64,000 bases of DNA. It comes from Bacteroidota bacterium. GTDB taxonomy: Bacteria; Bacteroidota; Bacteroidia; M30B66. The position numbers were made by a program, and so were the translations under genes. The stretch lies in contig JAIXYK010000043.1 in the NCBI GenBank assembly GCA_027490225.1, positions 1 through 64,000 of the forward strand, read 5' to 3'. Of this stretch, positions 18,466 through 50,416 are shown piece after piece (positions within the stretch are counted from its first letter, which is position 1; every line of letters starts with the position of its first letter). Below the pieces are notes generated by a model. That model was given only the letters and a program-made list of their open reading frames with translations. It was not told the origin of the DNA and did not search any database.

Positions 18466-20949
18466 TTATTCTTGAAAGTAAATGCGTTTTACACGCGCCG
18501 AAATTCCAGTGAGCACTTCATACGGAATGGTATCGAGCGTTTCGGCCATTTGGTGAATGTGTTGTGGATTTCCAAATACGATAACGGTATCGCCTTCATT
18601 TACTTTTGGCAAATGGGTAATGTCTACCATACACATGTCCATGCAGATGCCGCCAATGGTAAATGCTGCTTGTCCATTTATAAAGACACAACCTTTGCCA
18701 TTGCCCAATTTCCTGAGAAATCCATCGGCATAACCAATGGGCAAAGTGGCGATTCTGGAAGATTGAGTAATTTTTCCGCGACGGTTATAGCCAACTGTTT
18801 CCCCCATAGCCAATTCTTTGATTTGAGAAATAGTGGTTTTGAGCGTGCTCACATGTTGCAAAAAAGGTTGTTCCTCTTTAGAACCAATGCCATACAAACC
18901 AATGCCCAGTCGCACCATGTCGAAATGAGCAGAGACATGACGTGAAATTCCGCCTGAATTTAAAATATGCCTCAAGAAAGTTCTACCAGTTTGTTGCTGA
19001 ATGTAATTGCTCCAATCGGTAAAACGATGAATTTGCATTTGGGTAAAGTCATCGAAATCGGGTTCCGAACTAGCGGCAAGGTGCGAAAACACAGCTTCCA
19101 CTTCAAACCAAGGCATTGCATTGATGCGTTTACACAATTCGGGTAAATCTGCTTTTTCAAAACCTAGACGATGCATTCCAGTATCTAGTTTTAGTTGAAT
19201 CTTTATTGGATTTTCCTCATAGCCTGCGCGGTTCTTTGCAATTTCTGAAAATGCTTCTAAGATTCTAAAGTTGTAAATTTCAGGTGCCAATTGGTGTTCA
19301 ATCATGGCTAACAAACCATCTTTTTCAGGATTCATTACCATAATTGGCAAAGTTATGCCGGCTTTTCTCAGTGCAATTCCTTCATCGGCGTAAGCTACAG
19401 CCAGGTAATCAACGCCATTGTGTTGTAAAACATTGGCAATTTCGGCACTTCCGCTACCGTAGGAAAATGCCTTTACCATTGCCATCATTTTCACATTTGG
19501 TTTCAGTAAACTACGGTAGTAATTGAGGTTTTGTAAAAGTGCTGAAAGGTTTATTTCTAAAACTGTTTCGTGAGATTTTTCTTGTAAAATATCTGCAATC
19601 TTTTCGAACTCAAATACCCTTGCTCCTTTTAATAAAATACAGGCATTATGGATGGGAATTTGAGCAATATTGTCTAAGCAATCGTTGGTTGTTTTGAAAA
19701 ACAAAGAGCTATTGGGGAAATAATTTCTGAATGTGGCTATTTCCTCTCCGATTCCTATCAATAATGAGATTCCTTTTTGTTTGATAAGTAAACTTATCTC
19801 TGAATAAAGCTCATCATTTGATTTACCTGTCTGGTAAAAATCAGATAAAAACAAAACCCGCTGTTTGAATTTTACCTGTTGTTCCATGCTGTTAAGCGCA
19901 ATCTTTAGAGACTCAATATCGGCGCTATAGGCATCGTTTATTATTACACTATTGTTGATAGCTGCTTTAATTTCCAAGCGCATTTCCAATGCTTGCAGTT
20001 GTAGAATGCGACTTTGGATGGTTTCAAAATTATAGCCCAAATGAAGCATCAACAAACAAACATGCATTATATTTTCTACAGAAGCGCTATCAGCAAATGG
20101 AAGCGTTAATGTATGTTCGTGTTCTTGCCAAATCAATCTTACAAAAGTATTCCCCAGATTTACATGCGAAGAAATAACCTTGAGTTGTGCATTTTCTTGC
20201 TTTCCCCAAGTAATTTTCTGGCAGTTTGCTAACTGTTTGCTTTGAGTTACTTCTTGGTGAATGAGCGCATGATCGGTGCAATAAAAAAGCACTTTGCACC
20301 TCTCGAAAAGCTGCATTTTTTCCTGGATTCTTTCTTCGAAGGAATTAAAATTTTCGGCATGAGCAGAACCAATATTCGTAAAAATGCCCCAATCTGGTTG
20401 TATTACACTAGCCAGTTTGTGCATTTCATTTGGTTGAGAAATTCCAGCTTCAATAATTGCAAAGTTGTTTTCCTGATTTATCTGCAAAACCGAAATTGGA
20501 ACCCCCAACTGAGAATTAAAACTTTTAGGACTTCTGTATATTTTATAATCTTCCTGTAAAACTGAATACAACCATTCTTTAACAATGGTTTTCCCGTTGC
20601 TGCCTGTAATTCCAACAATTGGAGATGTAAATTGATTCCTATGTTGAGTGGCAATCTTTTGCAAGGCATCTATTGCATTGTCGACTAAAATGTAGTTTAC
20701 ATTGTCAATATTCTTTATTTCAGAATCACGTTCTACAATAAAATTTGCAACACCTTTTTCAGCGAGGTCCTTAATATACTTGTGTCCATCACCTTTATTG
20801 CTTTTAATGGCAACAAACAAACTATTTACTGGATAAAAAACCTTTCGGCTATCGAACACTATTTCTTTGAATTCAGTTTTTGAAGCTGCTTTGATTTGGG
20901 CAGAAACAGATAAATAATCAGCAAATTGAAGCAAAGAAAAATCCTGCAT
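18466..20949 (-). CDS. murF-alr: Bifunctional UDP-MurNAc-tripeptide:D-Ala-D-Ala ligase / alanine racemase
   Basis: An 827-residue fusion. The N-terminal half (about 1-455) is a Mur ligase: P-loop GSNGKT at 116-121, substrate region PKSFNSQLGVP at 141-151, C-terminal ligase domain at 330-450. MurF adds D-Ala-D-Ala to the peptidoglycan precursor. The second half (about 465-827) is alanine racemase with PLP lysine K493 (MVKAFSYGSG) and MNPE / HLAASSEPD / NSGGISRH motifs. The fusion is well known in Bacteroidota and couples D-Ala supply to its use. The start ATG overlaps the tdk stop by one base (TAATG), so translation is coupled. I see no lesion in either domain. Confidence 0.95.
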   Translation of the reverse strand: MQDFSLLQFADYLSVSAQIKAASKTEFKEIVFDSRKVFYPVNSLFVAIKSNKGDGHKYIKDLAEKGVANFIVERDSEIKNIDNVNYILVDNAIDALQKIATQHRNQFTSPIVGITGSNGKTIVKEWLYSVLQEDYKIYRSPKSFNSQLGVPISVLQINQENNFAIIEAGISQPNEMHKLASVIQPDWGIFTNIGSAHAENFNSFEERIQEKMQLFERCKVLFYCTDHALIHQEVTQSKQLANCQKITWGKQENAQLKVISSHVNLGNTFVRLIWQEHEHTLTLPFADSASVENIMHVCLLMLHLGYNFETIQSRILQLQALEMRLEIKAAINNSVIINDAYSADIESLKIALNSMEQQVKFKQRVLFLSDFYQTGKSNDELYSEISLLIKQKGISLLIGIGEEIATFRNYFPNSSLFFKTTNDCLDNIAQIPIHNACILLKGARVFEFEKIADILQEKSHETVLEINLSALLQNLNYYRSLLKPNVKMMAMVKAFSYGSGSAEIANVLQHNGVDYLAVAYADEGIALRKAGITLPIMVMNPEKDGLLAMIEHQLAPEIYNFRILEAFSEIAKNRAGYEENPIKIQLKLDTGMHRLGFEKADLPELCKRINAMPWFEVEAVFSHLAASSEPDFDDFTQMQIHRFTDWSNYIQQQTGRTFLRHILNSGGISRHVSAHFDMVRLGIGLYGIGSKEEQPFLQHVSTLKTTISQIKELAMGETVGYNRRGKITQSSRIATLPIGYADGFLRKLGNGKGCVFINGQAAFTIGGICMDMCMVDITHLPKVNEGDTVIVFGNPQHIHQMAETLDTIPYEVLTGISARVKRIYFQE

Positions 20950-26045: not shown

Positions 26046-26111
26046 ATTAAACCTGCTTTGTAATTTCATAAATAGGTATTAATACTCATATAGTATCTAC
26101 CAAAAGAATTT

Positions 26112-26119
26112 TACATTTG
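26112..26119 (+). promoter_or_regulatory. Promoter box of the PAS kinase operon
   Basis: TACATTTG is a perfect match to TAnnTTTG and lies 40 bases before the kinase ATG at 26160. Confidence 0.5.
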
Positions 26120-26159
26120 GATTGAATAAAAAATTAATTCCCCTGTGCTCTGATTAATT

Positions 26160-27971
26160 ATGAGTGAATCTGTTAATGATGTAAACTTAATTTGGTTTGA
26201 AATAGACAATAACTCTTGTTTTACAAGAATTAACAAATCTGCTCAATTGCTTTTAGAAGCTGATGAATGCATGCTTAAGGGCAAAAATATAGAATCTATT
26301 TTTAAACCTTTTCATGTTGAATTACTAAAGGTTAGAATTGCTTCACTTATAGAAGGAACAATAGATAGTTTTTCTTTAAGAATGGAATTACTAAATTCTG
26401 GTAAGAAAGTGATTCTAGGAATTTATATCAATGATTTGATTGACGGTCAAAGAAGAATGATTGGTGCTTTTCAGATAATTCAAGAAAAGAAAGCTTTTCT
26501 TGAAAATCCAAAAAAATTATTAATTCAGCTAAATCATACGAAAGAAGCGATAGCAATTAGAAATCAGAAAGGTGATTACTTCTTTATCAATAAAGCATTG
26601 ATAGATATTTTTGGATATAACTCATCTAAGGAATTATTAGGCAAACAATGGACTGCGCTTCATTTCCCAGAAGATACTCAAAAAATTGATGCTGAAGTTA
26701 AAGAACAGCTTAGTTTAAACGGTAATTTTAGAGGAGAAATTAGAGGAAAGAAAAAAGACAATTCATTGATTTATTTAGAGCTAAGTTTAACTCAGCTTGA
26801 CAATGGAGATACGCTTAGTTTATTTAAAGATATTTCGAATAAAAAAATACAAGAAAAAGAACTCGAGAAATTAGGAATGGTGCTTGAAAAGACTAATTCT
26901 CAAGTTTTAATGTTAGATAAAAAAGGAAATATTGAATGGGTCAATGAAGGATATCTTAAAAATTCCGGTTACAATGCAGATGATATCATTGGTAAAAACA
27001 TTCAAATTCTAGGAATGGGCGAAGCTACCAGTGTAGCTAGCATGCTGGAAATATCAAAATCCATAGAATTAGGAAATCCATATCGAGGGGAACAGTATCA
27101 ATATAAAAAATCAGGGCTAGGATATTGGATTTATTTCGATATTACTCCTTTAAAAAATCCTTCTTTTGAAGTCGAAGGATTTATTGTAGTTCAAAACGAT
27201 ATCTCTTCTATAAAAGAGGCCGAGAAAAATATACTTCAAACACTAGAAAGTGAAAGGAATCTAAGTAATCTTAAAACTAAATTTATACATCTTGCTTCTC
27301 ATGAATTTAGAACTCCTTTAGCTAGTATTCAGTCTAGTATTGACATTCTCGACTTATCTTTTATACAAAATGTAGATTCCAAAGATCCTCTAAGAAAGAC
27401 GTTTGAAAGGCATCATAAAAGAATTACTCATGAAATCAGAAGAATGTCTGATATAATGAGTAACATATTAGTTTTAGGAAGATTTGATGCAGGAAGGATG
27501 GTATACAACCCAGTGGAGGCAGACTTTTTAAACTTTGTAAATGAACTGATTATAGAGGAAACTTTTAGTAATTATTCTCCACGAACCGTTTGTCATGAAA
27601 TTAGAGGTAACCCAAGAAAAATTGAAATGGATGTGAGCATGATGAGATATATTTTTAAAAATTTACTTTCAAATGCCTTTAAATATTCTATGAACGAGCC
27701 CGATCCAATAATGATTGTGAGATATCTAGAAGAGTCAATTGTGATTGAAATAAAAGATTATGGTATTGGAGTTCCAGAAGAAGAGACATCTAATTTATTT
27801 ACTTCATTTTACAGATGCTCTAATGCAGAGGCTATTCCAGGAACTGGACTCGGTCTAGTTATAGTAAAACAACTCACAGAAATGCACCAAGGAAAAGTAA
27901 GCTTTATAAGTAACCATGAAAAAGGAACCACCTTTAAACTAGAATTTCCATATATACAAAAAAAATTATGA
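26160..27971 (+). CDS. PAS-domain sensor histidine kinase
   Basis: A 603-residue histidine kinase with no transmembrane segment, so it is likely a soluble sensor. Up to three PAS domains precede the kinase: a weak one at about 5-110, then about 115-235 (IRNQKGDYFFINKAL, GYNSSKELLGK) and 240-355 (GNIEWVNEGYLKNSGY). The phosphoacceptor is H381 in LASHEFRTPL. The ATPase has the N box NLLSNAFKYS, G1 DYGIGVPEEE and G2 GTGLGLVIVK, all intact. PAS domains can bind flavin, haem or small ligands, and the signal is unknown. The stop overlaps the start of the response regulator by four bases (ATGA). Confidence 0.93.
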   Translation: MSESVNDVNLIWFEIDNNSCFTRINKSAQLLLEADECMLKGKNIESIFKPFHVELLKVRIASLIEGTIDSFSLRMELLNSGKKVILGIYINDLIDGQRRMIGAFQIIQEKKAFLENPKKLLIQLNHTKEAIAIRNQKGDYFFINKALIDIFGYNSSKELLGKQWTALHFPEDTQKIDAEVKEQLSLNGNFRGEIRGKKKDNSLIYLELSLTQLDNGDTLSLFKDISNKKIQEKELEKLGMVLEKTNSQVLMLDKKGNIEWVNEGYLKNSGYNADDIIGKNIQILGMGEATSVASMLEISKSIELGNPYRGEQYQYKKSGLGYWIYFDITPLKNPSFEVEGFIVVQNDISSIKEAEKNILQTLESERNLSNLKTKFIHLASHEFRTPLASIQSSIDILDLSFIQNVDSKDPLRKTFERHHKRITHEIRRMSDIMSNILVLGRFDAGRMVYNPVEADFLNFVNELIIEETFSNYSPRTVCHEIRGNPRKIEMDVSMMRYIFKNLLSNAFKYSMNEPDPIMIVRYLEESIVIEIKDYGIGVPEEETSNLFTSFYRCSNAEAIPGTGLGLVIVKQLTEMHQGKVSFISNHEKGTTFKLEFPYIQKKL

Positions 27972-28618
27972 AAAAAATCGTAGTAGTAGAAGATGAAAAT
28001 AGATTGAGAGAAAACATTATTGAAATATTGCAAATGGAAGGCTACGAGACTTTTGCTGCCTCAAATGGGAAAGAAGGTCTTCATGAAATAAAAAAGAATA
28101 ACCCAGATATCATACTGTGTGATATAAAAATGAATGATTATGATGGTTATTGGTTGATTAACGAACTCTCAAAAAGTGAAAAATTTTTGAATATTCCATT
28201 TATATATATTTCTGCCAAAGTAGATAGAATAGATATTAGAAACGGAATGTCTTTGGGGGCTGATGATTATATTACCAAGCCTTTTACAAGAGCCGAATTA
28301 GTTTCTGCAATTAATATTAGATTGAAGAGAAAAGAAGATTTCATAAAAAATATTGATGATTCAGAAACAATTACACCGATTGTTGCAGCTCAAGTTAGAG
28401 AACAAATAAAAAATCTCACTTCTTCTGAAAAACGAATTTTGAAATTAATAACAGAAAACAGAACCTCTCAAGATATAGCAGCTGAACTTTTTATTAGTAT
28501 AAAGACCGTTGACAATCACCGTTCTAATATTGCTCATAAGCTGCAAATAAAAGGACATCTATCTTTATTAAAGTATTGTTTGAATTATAAATCAATAATA
28601 AATGAATTTGAAAAATGA
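27968..28618 (+). CDS. NarL/LuxR-family response regulator
   Basis: A 216-residue regulator, cognate to the kinase it overlaps by four bases. The receiver domain (1-120) has phosphoacceptor D52 in ILCDIKMND, acidic residues E9 and D10, and K104 in YITKPF. Residues 150-216 form a LuxR-type helix-turn-helix (LTSSEKRILKLI, SQDIAAELFISIKTVDNHR). It should bind DNA when phosphorylated. A promoter for a probable small RNA begins 37 bases after its stop, an obvious candidate target, though nothing in the sequence proves this. Confidence 0.95.
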   Translation: MKKIVVVEDENRLRENIIEILQMEGYETFAASNGKEGLHEIKKNNPDIILCDIKMNDYDGYWLINELSKSEKFLNIPFIYISAKVDRIDIRNGMSLGADDYITKPFTRAELVSAINIRLKRKEDFIKNIDDSETITPIVAAQVREQIKNLTSSEKRILKLITENRTSQDIAAELFISIKTVDNHRSNIAHKLQIKGHLSLLKYCLNYKSIINEFEK

Positions 28619-28654
28619 GTAGTAACACCTATTTCAAATTAAACTTAGAGAGTA

Positions 28655-28662
28655 TAGTTTTG
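28655..28662 (+). promoter_or_regulatory. Promoter of the candidate small RNA
   Basis: TAGTTTTG matches TAnnTTTG exactly, with TTTC at 28632-28635 and a 19-base spacer as a near -33 element. It lies after the response-regulator stop and points rightward, where there is no protein gene before the terminator at 28785-28819. Confidence 0.55.
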
Positions 28663-28667
28663 TATAA

Positions 28668-28819
28668 CGATTAGGAAAGAAAAAATGTACGGATTTTCTA
28701 ATTGTTACTTCGGTATCTGGTAGTATGCGAAGTGGTTTGTGAATAAATTATTCGAGTCTTTACAGACTTATCCGTACTAAATAAAAAAAGAGGCTATCCT
28801 AGGGGAGTAGCCTCTTTTT
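28668..28819 (+). ncRNA. Candidate structured small RNA of about 150 bases
   Basis: A promoter box ends at 28662 and a terminator begins at 28785. Between them an 8-bp perfect stem GTACGGAT (28687-28694) / ATCCGTAC (28770-28777) closes a domain with further inverted repeats: ACTTCG (28707-28712) / CGAAGT (28728-28733), GAATAA / TTATTC (28741-28753) and GTCT / AGAC (28756-28767). A closing stem, inner hairpins and a terminator are what an independent structured RNA would show. It matches no RNA family I know; 6S, SRP RNA, tmRNA and RNase P RNA were considered and not recognised. A 12-codon reading frame begins at 28685 within it. Confidence 0.55.
28785..28819. terminator. Terminator between the small-RNA candidate and dnaK
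   Basis: Stem GAGGCTA / TAGCCTC with an 11-base loop, flanked by A5 on the left and T5 on the right. It is symmetrical, so it can serve both the rightward transcript and leftward dnaK. Confidence 0.88.
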
Positions 28820-28836
28820 ATTTGTTAAATCTTTAC

Positions 28837-30738
28837 TTATTTTACTTCTTCAAAATCCACATCTGTAACCTCAGCATTTTGAGTTTCATTTGACTGACTT
28901 TGATTTGGTGCTTCATTTTGCGGTGCATCCTGAGATGCTTTGTACATATCTTCTGAAGCTGCAGCCCACGCTGCATTTAAAGTTTCCATTGCTGTATCTA
29001 TTCCATTTAAGTCTCTGCTTTGGTGCGCTGTTTTAAGTGTAGTTAAAGCACCTTCAATGTTAGATTTCTTATCTGCCGGAATTTTGTCACCGAACTCTTT
29101 TAGTTGTTTTTCTGTTTGGAAAATTAAACTATCAGCTTGGTTTACTTTATCCGCCTCTTCTTTTGCTTTTCTATCAACCTCTGCATTTGCTTCTGCTTCA
29201 GCTTTCATTTTTTTGATTTCGTCGTCACTTAAACCTGAAGATGCCTCAATTCGAATTTTCTGTTCTTTACCAGTTGCTTTATCTTTTGCTGCAACATGTA
29301 AAATTCCATTTGCATCTATATCAAAAGTTACTTCAATTTGAGGAACTCCACGCGGAGCTGGAGGTAAGCCATCTAAATGGAAACGGCCTATCGTTCTATT
29401 TTGAGCAGCCATTGGTCTTTCTCCTTGTAAAATATGAATCTCAACCGATGGCTGACTGTCACTGGCTGTTGAGAACGTTTCAGATTTCTTAGTTGGAATC
29501 GTCGTGTTTGACTCAATCAATCTTGTCATTACACCACCCATGGTCTCAATACCTAAAGAAAGAGGAGTAACATCTAACAATAAAACATCTTTTACTTCAC
29601 CTGTTAATACTCCACCTTGAATTGCTGCACCAATCGCAACTACTTCATCTGGATTTACTCCTTTTGAAGGTGCTTTACCAAAGAATTTTTCAACAGCAGC
29701 CTGAACAGCAGGAATTCTAGTAGAACCTCCAACCAAAATAATTTCATCGATATCACTGGTTGTGTAGCCTGCATTTTTTAATGCATTTTTACAAGGCTCT
29801 ATTGTACGACGGATTAAGTCGTCAACTAATTGTTCGAATTTAGCCTTTGTTAAACTCCTAACAAGATGTTTAGGGCCTGAAGATGTTGCTGTAATGTAAG
29901 GCAAGTTAATCTCTGTAACTGAAGAACTAGATAACTCGATTTTTGCTTTTTCTGCAGCTTCTTTTAAACGCTGCAATGCCATTGGATCTTTTGTTAAATC
30001 TAAGCCTTCTCCTTCTGTTGATTTGAATTCTTCAGATAACCAGTCAATGATTTTTTGATCAAAATCATCTCCACCTAAATGGGTATCTCCATCAGTTGCT
30101 TTTACTTCAAATACGCCTTCACCTAGTTCAAGAATTGAAACATCATGTGTACCTCCTCCACAATCAAATACAGCTATTTTCATATCTGCATTCTTTTTAT
30201 CTAAACCATAAGCCAAAGCTGCTGCAGTTGGCTCATTTATTATACGCATAACCTTTAAACCAGCAATTTCTCCGGCTTCTTTGGTAGCTTGGCGCTGTGC
30301 GTCGTTAAAATATGCAGGAACTGTGATTACAGCTTCTGTAATATCGTGACCTAAATAATCTTGAGCGGTTTGCTTCATTTTTTGAAGCACCATCGCAGAA
30401 ATTTCTTGAGGTGTATATGTGCGGTCATCAATTTGTACACGTGGAGTATTATTATCTCCTTTTACAACTTTATAAGGTACACGGCCCGCCTCTGATTGTA
30501 CTTCAGAAAAGGAATTCCCCATAAATCGTTTTATTGATGAAATAGTTTTCGTAGGATTTGTGATGGCTTGGCGTTTAGCCGGATCTCCAACTTTACGTTC
30601 GCCCTTATCTAAGAACGCTACAATTGATGGCGTTGTGCGTTTACCTTCACTATTAGGAATCACTACAGGCTCGTTACCTTCCATTACAGATACACATGAA
30701 TTTGTTGTACCTAAGTCAATACCAATTATTTTTCCCAT
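28837..30738 (-). CDS. dnaK: Molecular chaperone DnaK (Hsp70)
   Basis: A 633-residue Hsp70. The ATPase domain starts [17 protein letters not shown] and contains [29 protein letters not shown] and [12 protein letters not shown]. The substrate domain and lid follow, ending in the acidic [10 protein letters not shown] tail that binds partners. Length and all signatures are normal. grpE and dnaJ are not adjacent. Two 13-base palindromes lie 106-139 bases upstream and may control heat-shock expression. Confidence 0.98.
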
Positions 30739-48934: not shown

Positions 48935-49981
48935 ATGTTGCAACAACCTGCCAATAAAACCGAATTAAAAAAATTGGGTGAGTTTGGATTGATTCATACC
49001 CTAACCGATAACATTAAACTTGTAAATACGAGCTCTAAGCTTGGTGTTGGAGACGATGCGGCAGTAATTAATCAAGGAGACAAAGACTTACTTGTTTCTA
49101 CTGATATGCTATTGGAAGGTGTGCATTTCGATTTAACTTATGTTCCATTAAAACATTTGGGTTATAAAGCTGCTATTGTAAATTTCTCAGACATTTATGC
49201 AATGAATGGCCATCCAAAGCAATTAACAATTGGGCTTGCTTGTTCGAATAGGTTTCCTGTAGAAGCATTAGAACAATTATATGAAGGAATTCAAATGGCA
49301 TGTTCAGCTTATGGTGTTGATTTAGTAGGTGGCGACACTACATCTTCAAGGGCAGGACTTATTTTAAGCTTAACAATAATAGGTGAAGTTGAAAAAGACA
49401 AAGCTGTAAAAAGAAATGGTGCGAAAGTGGGCGATTTATTAGTTGTTTCAGGAGATTTAGGAGGTGCTTATGTTGGTTTGCAATTATTAGAAAGGGAAAA
49501 ATCTGTATTTATGGACCATCCTGATGCACAACCCGATTTAGAAGGCAATGATTATATTTTGGAAAGACAATTAAAACCAGAAGCAAGAAAAGATATTGTT
49601 GAATACTTAGCAGAAATTGGCATTCAACCGTCTTCAATGATTGATATTTCCGATGGATTAAGTTCTGAAATTCTTCACATTTGTAATCAAAGTAATACAG
49701 GTTGTAGGTTATATGAAGAAAAAATACCCATTGATTCAACCACTTACAATATGGCGCGTGAATTTGGTTTAGATCCAACAGTTTGTGCTTTAAGCGGCGG
49801 TGAAGATTATGAATTGTTATTTACCATTGCTCAAAGCGACTTCGATAAAATTAAAAACAGTCCGCTTTTAACAGTTATAGGACATATTACTGATATCAGT
49901 GAAGGTGTTCAGATGGTTGATAAAAGTGGAGGCATTCACCCTATTGTAGCCCAAGGCTGGAGCTCTTTTGAAGAAGAATAA
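48935..49981 (+). CDS. thiL: Thiamine-monophosphate kinase
   Basis: A 348-residue kinase that makes thiamine pyrophosphate from thiamine monophosphate. Motifs: GDDAAVI (about 37-43), LLVSTDMLLEGVHFD, ALGYKAAIVNFSDIYAMNG region, GGDTTSS, DISDGLSSEI and LSGGEDYELLF, all of the AIR synthase-like ThiL fold. It lies four bases after dusB and is followed by a strong bidirectional terminator. No other thi gene is in view. Confidence 0.95.
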   Translation: MLQQPANKTELKKLGEFGLIHTLTDNIKLVNTSSKLGVGDDAAVINQGDKDLLVSTDMLLEGVHFDLTYVPLKHLGYKAAIVNFSDIYAMNGHPKQLTIGLACSNRFPVEALEQLYEGIQMACSAYGVDLVGGDTTSSRAGLILSLTIIGEVEKDKAVKRNGAKVGDLLVVSGDLGGAYVGLQLLEREKSVFMDHPDAQPDLEGNDYILERQLKPEARKDIVEYLAEIGIQPSSMIDISDGLSSEILHICNQSNTGCRLYEEKIPIDSTTYNMAREFGLDPTVCALSGGEDYELLFTIAQSDFDKIKNSPLLTVIGHITDISEGVQMVDKSGGIHPIVAQGWSSFEEE

Positions 49982-50011
49982 TACATATCTTTTGTTTTAA
50001 ATTACTCCCAT

Positions 50012-50047
50012 AAAAAAAGCCCCTTGGAAATACCGAGGGGCTTTTTT
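50012..50047. terminator. Bidirectional terminator between thiL and rplS
   Basis: GCCCCTTGG / CCGAGGGGC with a 5-base loop AAATA, flanked by A7 on the left and T6 on the right. It serves convergent thiL and rplS. Confidence 0.92.
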
Positions 50048-50068
50048 ATATATATTTTATGAGTCTTA

Positions 50069-50416
50069 TTAAACAACTCTTTCTTTGATACGTGCTTTTT
50101 TACCTTTCAGTTCACGTATGTAGTAAATACGAGCGCGACGTACAACACCACGTTTATTCACATCAATTTTATCGATAAAAGGAGAATTATCAGGAAAAAT
50201 ACGCTCTACGCCTACTCCATTTGACATTTTACGAACTGTGAAAGTACGTGTAACGCCAGTTCCTTTGCGCTGTAAAACAACACCTTGGTATTGCTGAATA
50301 CGTTCTTTTTCACCTTCTTTAATTTTGAAGTGAACTGTTACTGTATCACCTGCTTTGAATGAAGGTAGCTCACGTTTTTCGGTAAGCTGTGCTGCTATAG
50401 TTGATAGAAAATCCAT
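50069..50416 (-). CDS. rplS: 50S ribosomal protein L19
   Basis: A 115-residue L19, located at the interface of the ribosomal subunits. It has [45 protein letters not shown] and [19 protein letters not shown], with the normal family length. trmD lies 85 bases upstream in the same direction; the trmD-rplS order is a widely conserved bacterial arrangement, although rpsP and rimM are missing here. Confidence 0.98.

Follow-up and report, generated by a model that had tools for sequence, protein, structure and literature searches.

At the end of a two-component operon in a Bacteroidia genome (G000), a response regulator gene and the convergent dnaK gene are separated by 218 bp that hold no protein gene, and the question raised by this locus is whether the gap contains a gene of another kind. 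The window analysed here is the whole 64,000-nucleotide stretch from contig C31 of this genome, whose order was sampled by 10 genomes from five genera. The initial annotation had read it as a free-standing RNA of about 150 bases, which the preceding two-component system could control, and from the comparisons below we think it fairly probable that the region is a small non-coding RNA gene belonging to the regulon of this system and activated by the adjacent LuxR/NarL-type regulator. The neighbouring genes are:

26160–27971, plus strand: PAS-domain histidine kinase, 603 amino acids (open reading frame and domain analysis)
27968–28618, plus strand: response regulator with receiver and GerE domains (LuxR/NarL type), 216 amino acids (open reading frame and domain analysis)
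28837–30738, minus strand: dnaK, convergent neighbour (open reading frame)

The perfect TAnnTTTG box from which the initial annotation had started is indeed present, as is the strong terminator, which is bidirectional and also serves dnaK; no open reading frame of at least 30 amino acids covers the candidate RNA region, in agreement with the earlier view that no convincing protein gene lies behind the box. In Flavobacterium psychrophilum the sigma-A box spans −12 to −5 (PMC9723704), and the transcription start (+1) is therefore predicted at 28667. The candidate RNA is single-copy within the genome, and its elements are:

28655–28662, plus strand: sigma-A −7 box TAGTTTTG of the RNA promoter (sequence; PMC9723704)
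28667–28819, plus strand: predicted small RNA, about 153 nt (from the box position and the terminator)
28785–28819, unstranded: bidirectional intrinsic terminator, common to the RNA and dnaK (sequence and fold)

By itself the box is weak evidence, the window having 91 such boxes over both strands, and a bidirectional terminator would serve any transcript coming from the regulator gene. Both observations would suit a region that did no more than form the 3′ untranslated region of the regulator's mRNA; that transcript would stop at the terminator which dnaK also uses and might yield a processed RNA, and the box would be a chance match. We consider this unlikely, because an operator matching that of the kinase promoter lies at exactly the same spacing upstream of the box, an arrangement that is repeated in G001 and G002 and that would not be expected of an untranslated region. 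The elements concerned are:

28617–28630, unstranded: dyad GAGTAGTAACACCT of the RNA promoter, 20-mer 28615–28634 (sequence comparison)
26074–26087, unstranded: dyad AGGTATTAATACTC of the kinase operon promoter (sequence comparison)
26112–26119, plus strand: sigma-A −7 box TACATTTG of the kinase operon, predicted +1 at 26124 (sequence; PMC9723704)

The dyad of the RNA promoter, which overlaps the stop codon of the regulator gene and was missed by the initial annotation, is centred 31.5 bp upstream of the box, approximately −43.5 from +1; the dyad of the kinase promoter is its inverted counterpart and is also centred 31.5 bp upstream of its own box. In comparisons made after the element had been noticed, the two 20-mer operators agreed at 18 of 20 positions, with 15/20 at the third-best place in 64 kb; when the dyad was sought at the same spacing from each of the 91 boxes, the kinase box gave 12/14 and all others 8/14 or less; and a generalised pattern of dyad, spacing and box matched only these two places within the window. 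The pattern GAGTNNTNACANCTA was not enriched over its reversed control (15 versus 28 matches), and for this reason it is not used as genome-wide proof; its position is what counts. The candidate RNA thus has a promoter of its own with an operator common to the two-component system, which is in keeping with the control suggested earlier, and we regard this dyad as the strongest evidence of all for an RNA gene. Activators in contact with RNA polymerase typically sit near −43.5, and regulators of the GerE type recognise dyads; the adjacent regulator (27968–28618) is therefore the natural candidate for the protein that binds both sites, presumably as an activator rather than a repressor. Since the promoter of the kinase operon also carries the dyad, the two-component system is probably autoregulated. 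A stretch on contig 17 of the same genome (L251) that resembles part of the element was rejected, as it does not have the first half of the dyad.

In the family, synteny is mostly kept, in the order hemH / kinase, LuxR-type regulator, (large sensor, CheY-type regulators), dnaK. Between the LuxR-type regulator and dnaK, the relatives have genes for a very large sensor kinase and for CheY-type regulators, which the window lacks there (28618–28837, compared with L239 and L244). In G002, a gene-less promoter lies between a CheY-type gene and dnaK, and its dyad GAGTGTTGACAACT has its centre 30.5 bp upstream of TAAATTTG; in the same genome, the large-sensor gene has a promoter with the dyad GAGTGTTAACAACT, likewise 30.5 bp from TACATTTA, and the two dyads agree at 13 of 14 positions. 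The equivalent gene-less promoter before dnaK in G001 has the dyad GGGGATCAACCCCC at 31.5 bp, and the kinase promoter of that genome has the inverted counterpart GGGGGTTGGTTCTC, again at 31.5 bp, the two operators agreeing at 15/20 positions (next best among 27 boxes, 11/20). Dyads of the same type are found at the kinase promoters of G003 and G008. The dyads drift between genomes and stay matched within each genome, as expected for sites of one regulator. Both G001 and G002 also have a terminator for the RNA unit that is separate from that of dnaK. In G004 there is no close orthologue of the regulator and the element is absent too, and in the genomes of genus g4 the two-component system is present and the gap before dnaK is too short for the RNA.

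These comparisons also bear on whether the promoter might drive no functional RNA, being a remnant of large-sensor and CheY-type genes lost from between the regulator and dnaK. Such an origin would fit the presence of those genes at this place in G002 and G008, their absence from the window and the occurrence of the same dyad at the large-sensor promoter of G002. It is rendered improbable by the further gene-less promoter that G001 and G002 have directly before dnaK, after the CheY-type gene, by the sequence and pairing that the RNA of G000 shares with that of G001, and by a fold that is better than chance (see below).

The pairing elements described in the initial annotation are all there: an 8-bp stem, in which GUACGGAU pairs with AUCCGUAC, and at least three inner inverted repeats, corresponding to the hairpins listed here. 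The fold differs in part from the one drawn from them and is probably more than a closed multiloop: a further stem (S1) that had been missed crosses the 8-bp stem (S2) and probably makes a pseudoknot:

28687–28777, plus strand: stem S2, 28687–28694 with 28770–28777, crossing S1 (fold)
28665–28707, plus strand: stem S1, 28665–28678 with 28694–28707, 14 bp including two G-U pairs (pairing search)
28705–28735, plus strand: hairpin H2 (28708–28732 with S1 formed) (fold)
28741–28769, plus strand: two small hairpins, 28741–28753 and 28754–28769 (fold)

S1 abuts S2, whose 5′ strand sits in the loop of S1, giving an H-type pseudoknot with an A-rich first loop of 8 nt. Because +1 is predicted at 28667, S1 begins where the RNA should begin, and it amounts to 12 bp when counted from there. 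The plus strand is favoured as the RNA, because in a transcript of the opposite strand the G-U pairs of S1 and H2 would turn into A-C mismatches. The two crossing helices are stronger than expected by chance, an equally strong pair being found in 1/200 shuffles and matched by about 0.2–0.3% of 120-nt stretches of the window. With the terminator included, the fold gave a z-score of −3.96, and none of 200 shuffles was as good; without it the values ranged from −1.8 (28669–28783) to −2.9 (28680–28783), so that the advantage of the nested fold over shuffles is owed largely to the terminator. Nested alternatives of similar energy exist beside the pseudoknot, and we therefore describe the pseudoknot as likely, not proven. 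The scan of the window for pseudoknots also picked out other stretches with very strong crossing helices, at 49961–50120 and 19401–19560.

The folded region also contains a 12-residue open reading frame, MYGFSNCYFGIW (28686–28724), and the transcript might be imagined as a tiny mRNA for it: its start lies in an A-rich upstream context (AAAGAAAAAAUG), and Bacteroidetes favour such contexts over Shine–Dalgarno sites (PMC6847099). We find this very improbable, as neither G001 nor G002 has such an open reading frame in the corresponding position, and its translation would break the pseudoknot.

Comparison of the same region among relatives had been suggested from the outset, and its outcome is divided: promoter and operator recur before dnaK in two other genera, but the sequence of the RNA is hardly conserved. 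A DNA similarity search of the relatives' genomes gave no match to the RNA, and a covariance search with a one-sequence model found no homologue and missed that of G001, so that position and operator were needed to find homologues. A class-wide pattern for the 5′ stem matched at about the control rate, and a contig scan with the regulator as query added no close relative. Local alignments of the intergenic regions were of weak significance (59/2000 shuffles for G000 with G002, 152/2000 for G000 with G001), and MAFFT alignments of the three RNAs (G000, G001 and G002) were unreliable.

What G000 and G001 do share, after the box, is the word ATTAGG, followed 18–20 nt later by TTTTCTAAT (in the RNA, AUUAGG...UUUUCUAAU); the words were noticed before being tested, and a pair of words of this kind was shared in register by 1/20,000 shuffles of G001. 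Between the two words lies the 5′ strand of S2, GUACGGAU in G000 and UCAUAUAAUU in G001, with its complement downstream in each. The helix has 7–8 bp in G000, a length not unusual alone (7 bp was reached in 105/2000 shuffles), and in G001 it is replaced by 10 new pairs (2/2000 shuffles); on these two sequences only, S2 looks like a helix that has been replaced but kept. The S1 of G001 has no more than 6 bp, other stems are preferred when the pseudoknot search is run unguided on that RNA, and the RNA of G002 looks different, with a 5′ hairpin and then a run of T. Promoter, operator and position together would thus trace the RNA gene to three genera, and some of its sequence and pairing to two. 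The proposal of an independent RNA of about 150 bases gains from the dyad-bearing promoter, from its recurrence before dnaK in two other genera and from the in-register conservation in G001.

The initial annotation had recognised no known RNA family, and a covariance scan with Rfam bears this out, giving no match at gathering scores; at permissive thresholds there were only weak matches far below the cut-offs, and the GibS model reached 20.6 bits, where the cut-off is 115, in a match that covered the terminator on the opposite strand. The models of 6S (RF00013) and 6S-Flavo (RF01685) gave no covariance-model match, and both RNAs resemble the candidate as structured non-coding RNAs of Bacteroidetes of similar length, with a different fold. 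The candidate could be imagined as an unrecognised 6S RNA of the order, since 6S-Flavo was undetected in G000 and 6S (RF00013) in all 10 genomes of the order, where 6S may either have been lost or be too diverged for the models. We give this scarcely any credence: the candidate has no long bulged rod and no 6S match even at permissive thresholds, it is missing from the corresponding position in genus g4 and in G004, and an operator of the regulator type would be unexpected for 6S.

Closer parallels are found in control logic. In the UvrY/SirA–CsrB/CsrC and GacA–RsmY/RsmZ systems, a FixJ/LuxR-type regulator and a palindromic site upstream of the small RNA gene are likewise combined, the palindrome for UvrY/SirA being 18 nt (PMC4682653). 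In contrast to those systems, here the RNA adjoins the regulator gene and the dyad lies near −43.5 rather than far upstream. The likeness ends with the control logic: the RNAs have no sequence relation, the Rfam covariance models gave no match, and there is no array of GGA in hairpin loops, the three GGA seen by inspection being in S1 (28674), S2 (28691) and the terminator hairpin (28804). In the GlrR–GlmY and RcsB–RprA circuits of enterobacteria, two-component regulators likewise switch on small RNA genes, and glmY adjoins its regulator genes; these circuits differ in RNA, in phylum and, for GlmY, in promoter type, sequence having been compared through the Rfam scan only. Within Bacteroidetes, GibS (145 nt, acting in trans; PMC7366714) and Rfp18 (PMC9723704) are likewise short intergenic RNAs with a sigma-A promoter and an intrinsic terminator, but their models gave no match at the gathering score and they have no known two-component operator. 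The candidate, known from its sequence, would thus be a new RNA within a functional type already known, the two-component-regulated small RNA.

We propose that the kinase activates the regulator, which, once phosphorylated, would bind the 14-bp dyad centred near −43.5 and recruit sigma-A RNA polymerase at two promoters, that of its own kinase operon, giving autoregulation, and that of the RNA. The RNA would begin near 28667 with its 5′ end buried in S1, fold as an H-type pseudoknot with S1 against S2 and the hairpins in the long loop, and end at the terminator common to dnaK. It would then act in trans, giving the system a post-transcriptional arm, most probably through the pairing of its exposed loops with mRNAs. 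The best target predicted within the window, the start of a trmD-like gene (−24.9 kcal/mol; 2/300 shuffles before correcting for 49 genes), is unconvincing, and we do not claim it.

Bacteroidetes small RNAs are poorly understood, and we know of none that has been assigned to a two-component regulator. We suggest tentatively that this RNA could be the founder of a class, in which one autoregulated LuxR-type two-component system has pseudoknotted small RNAs as its dedicated output in several Bacteroidia genera, and the operators of the kinase and RNA promoters change in step. Regulator, operator and RNA lie side by side, so the circuit is directly testable, and the dyad offers a way into the remainder of the regulon. 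Even where a small RNA has diverged so far that alignment and covariance search hardly recognise it, the promoter and operator of its gene can, it appears, be followed from one genus to another.

A sequence matching the 20-mer operator of the window at 19/20 positions was also seen in a long intergenic region on contig 15 of G002 (L235, 1499–1518); it has no TAnnTTTG box at the usual spacing, and possibly marks another member of the regulon.
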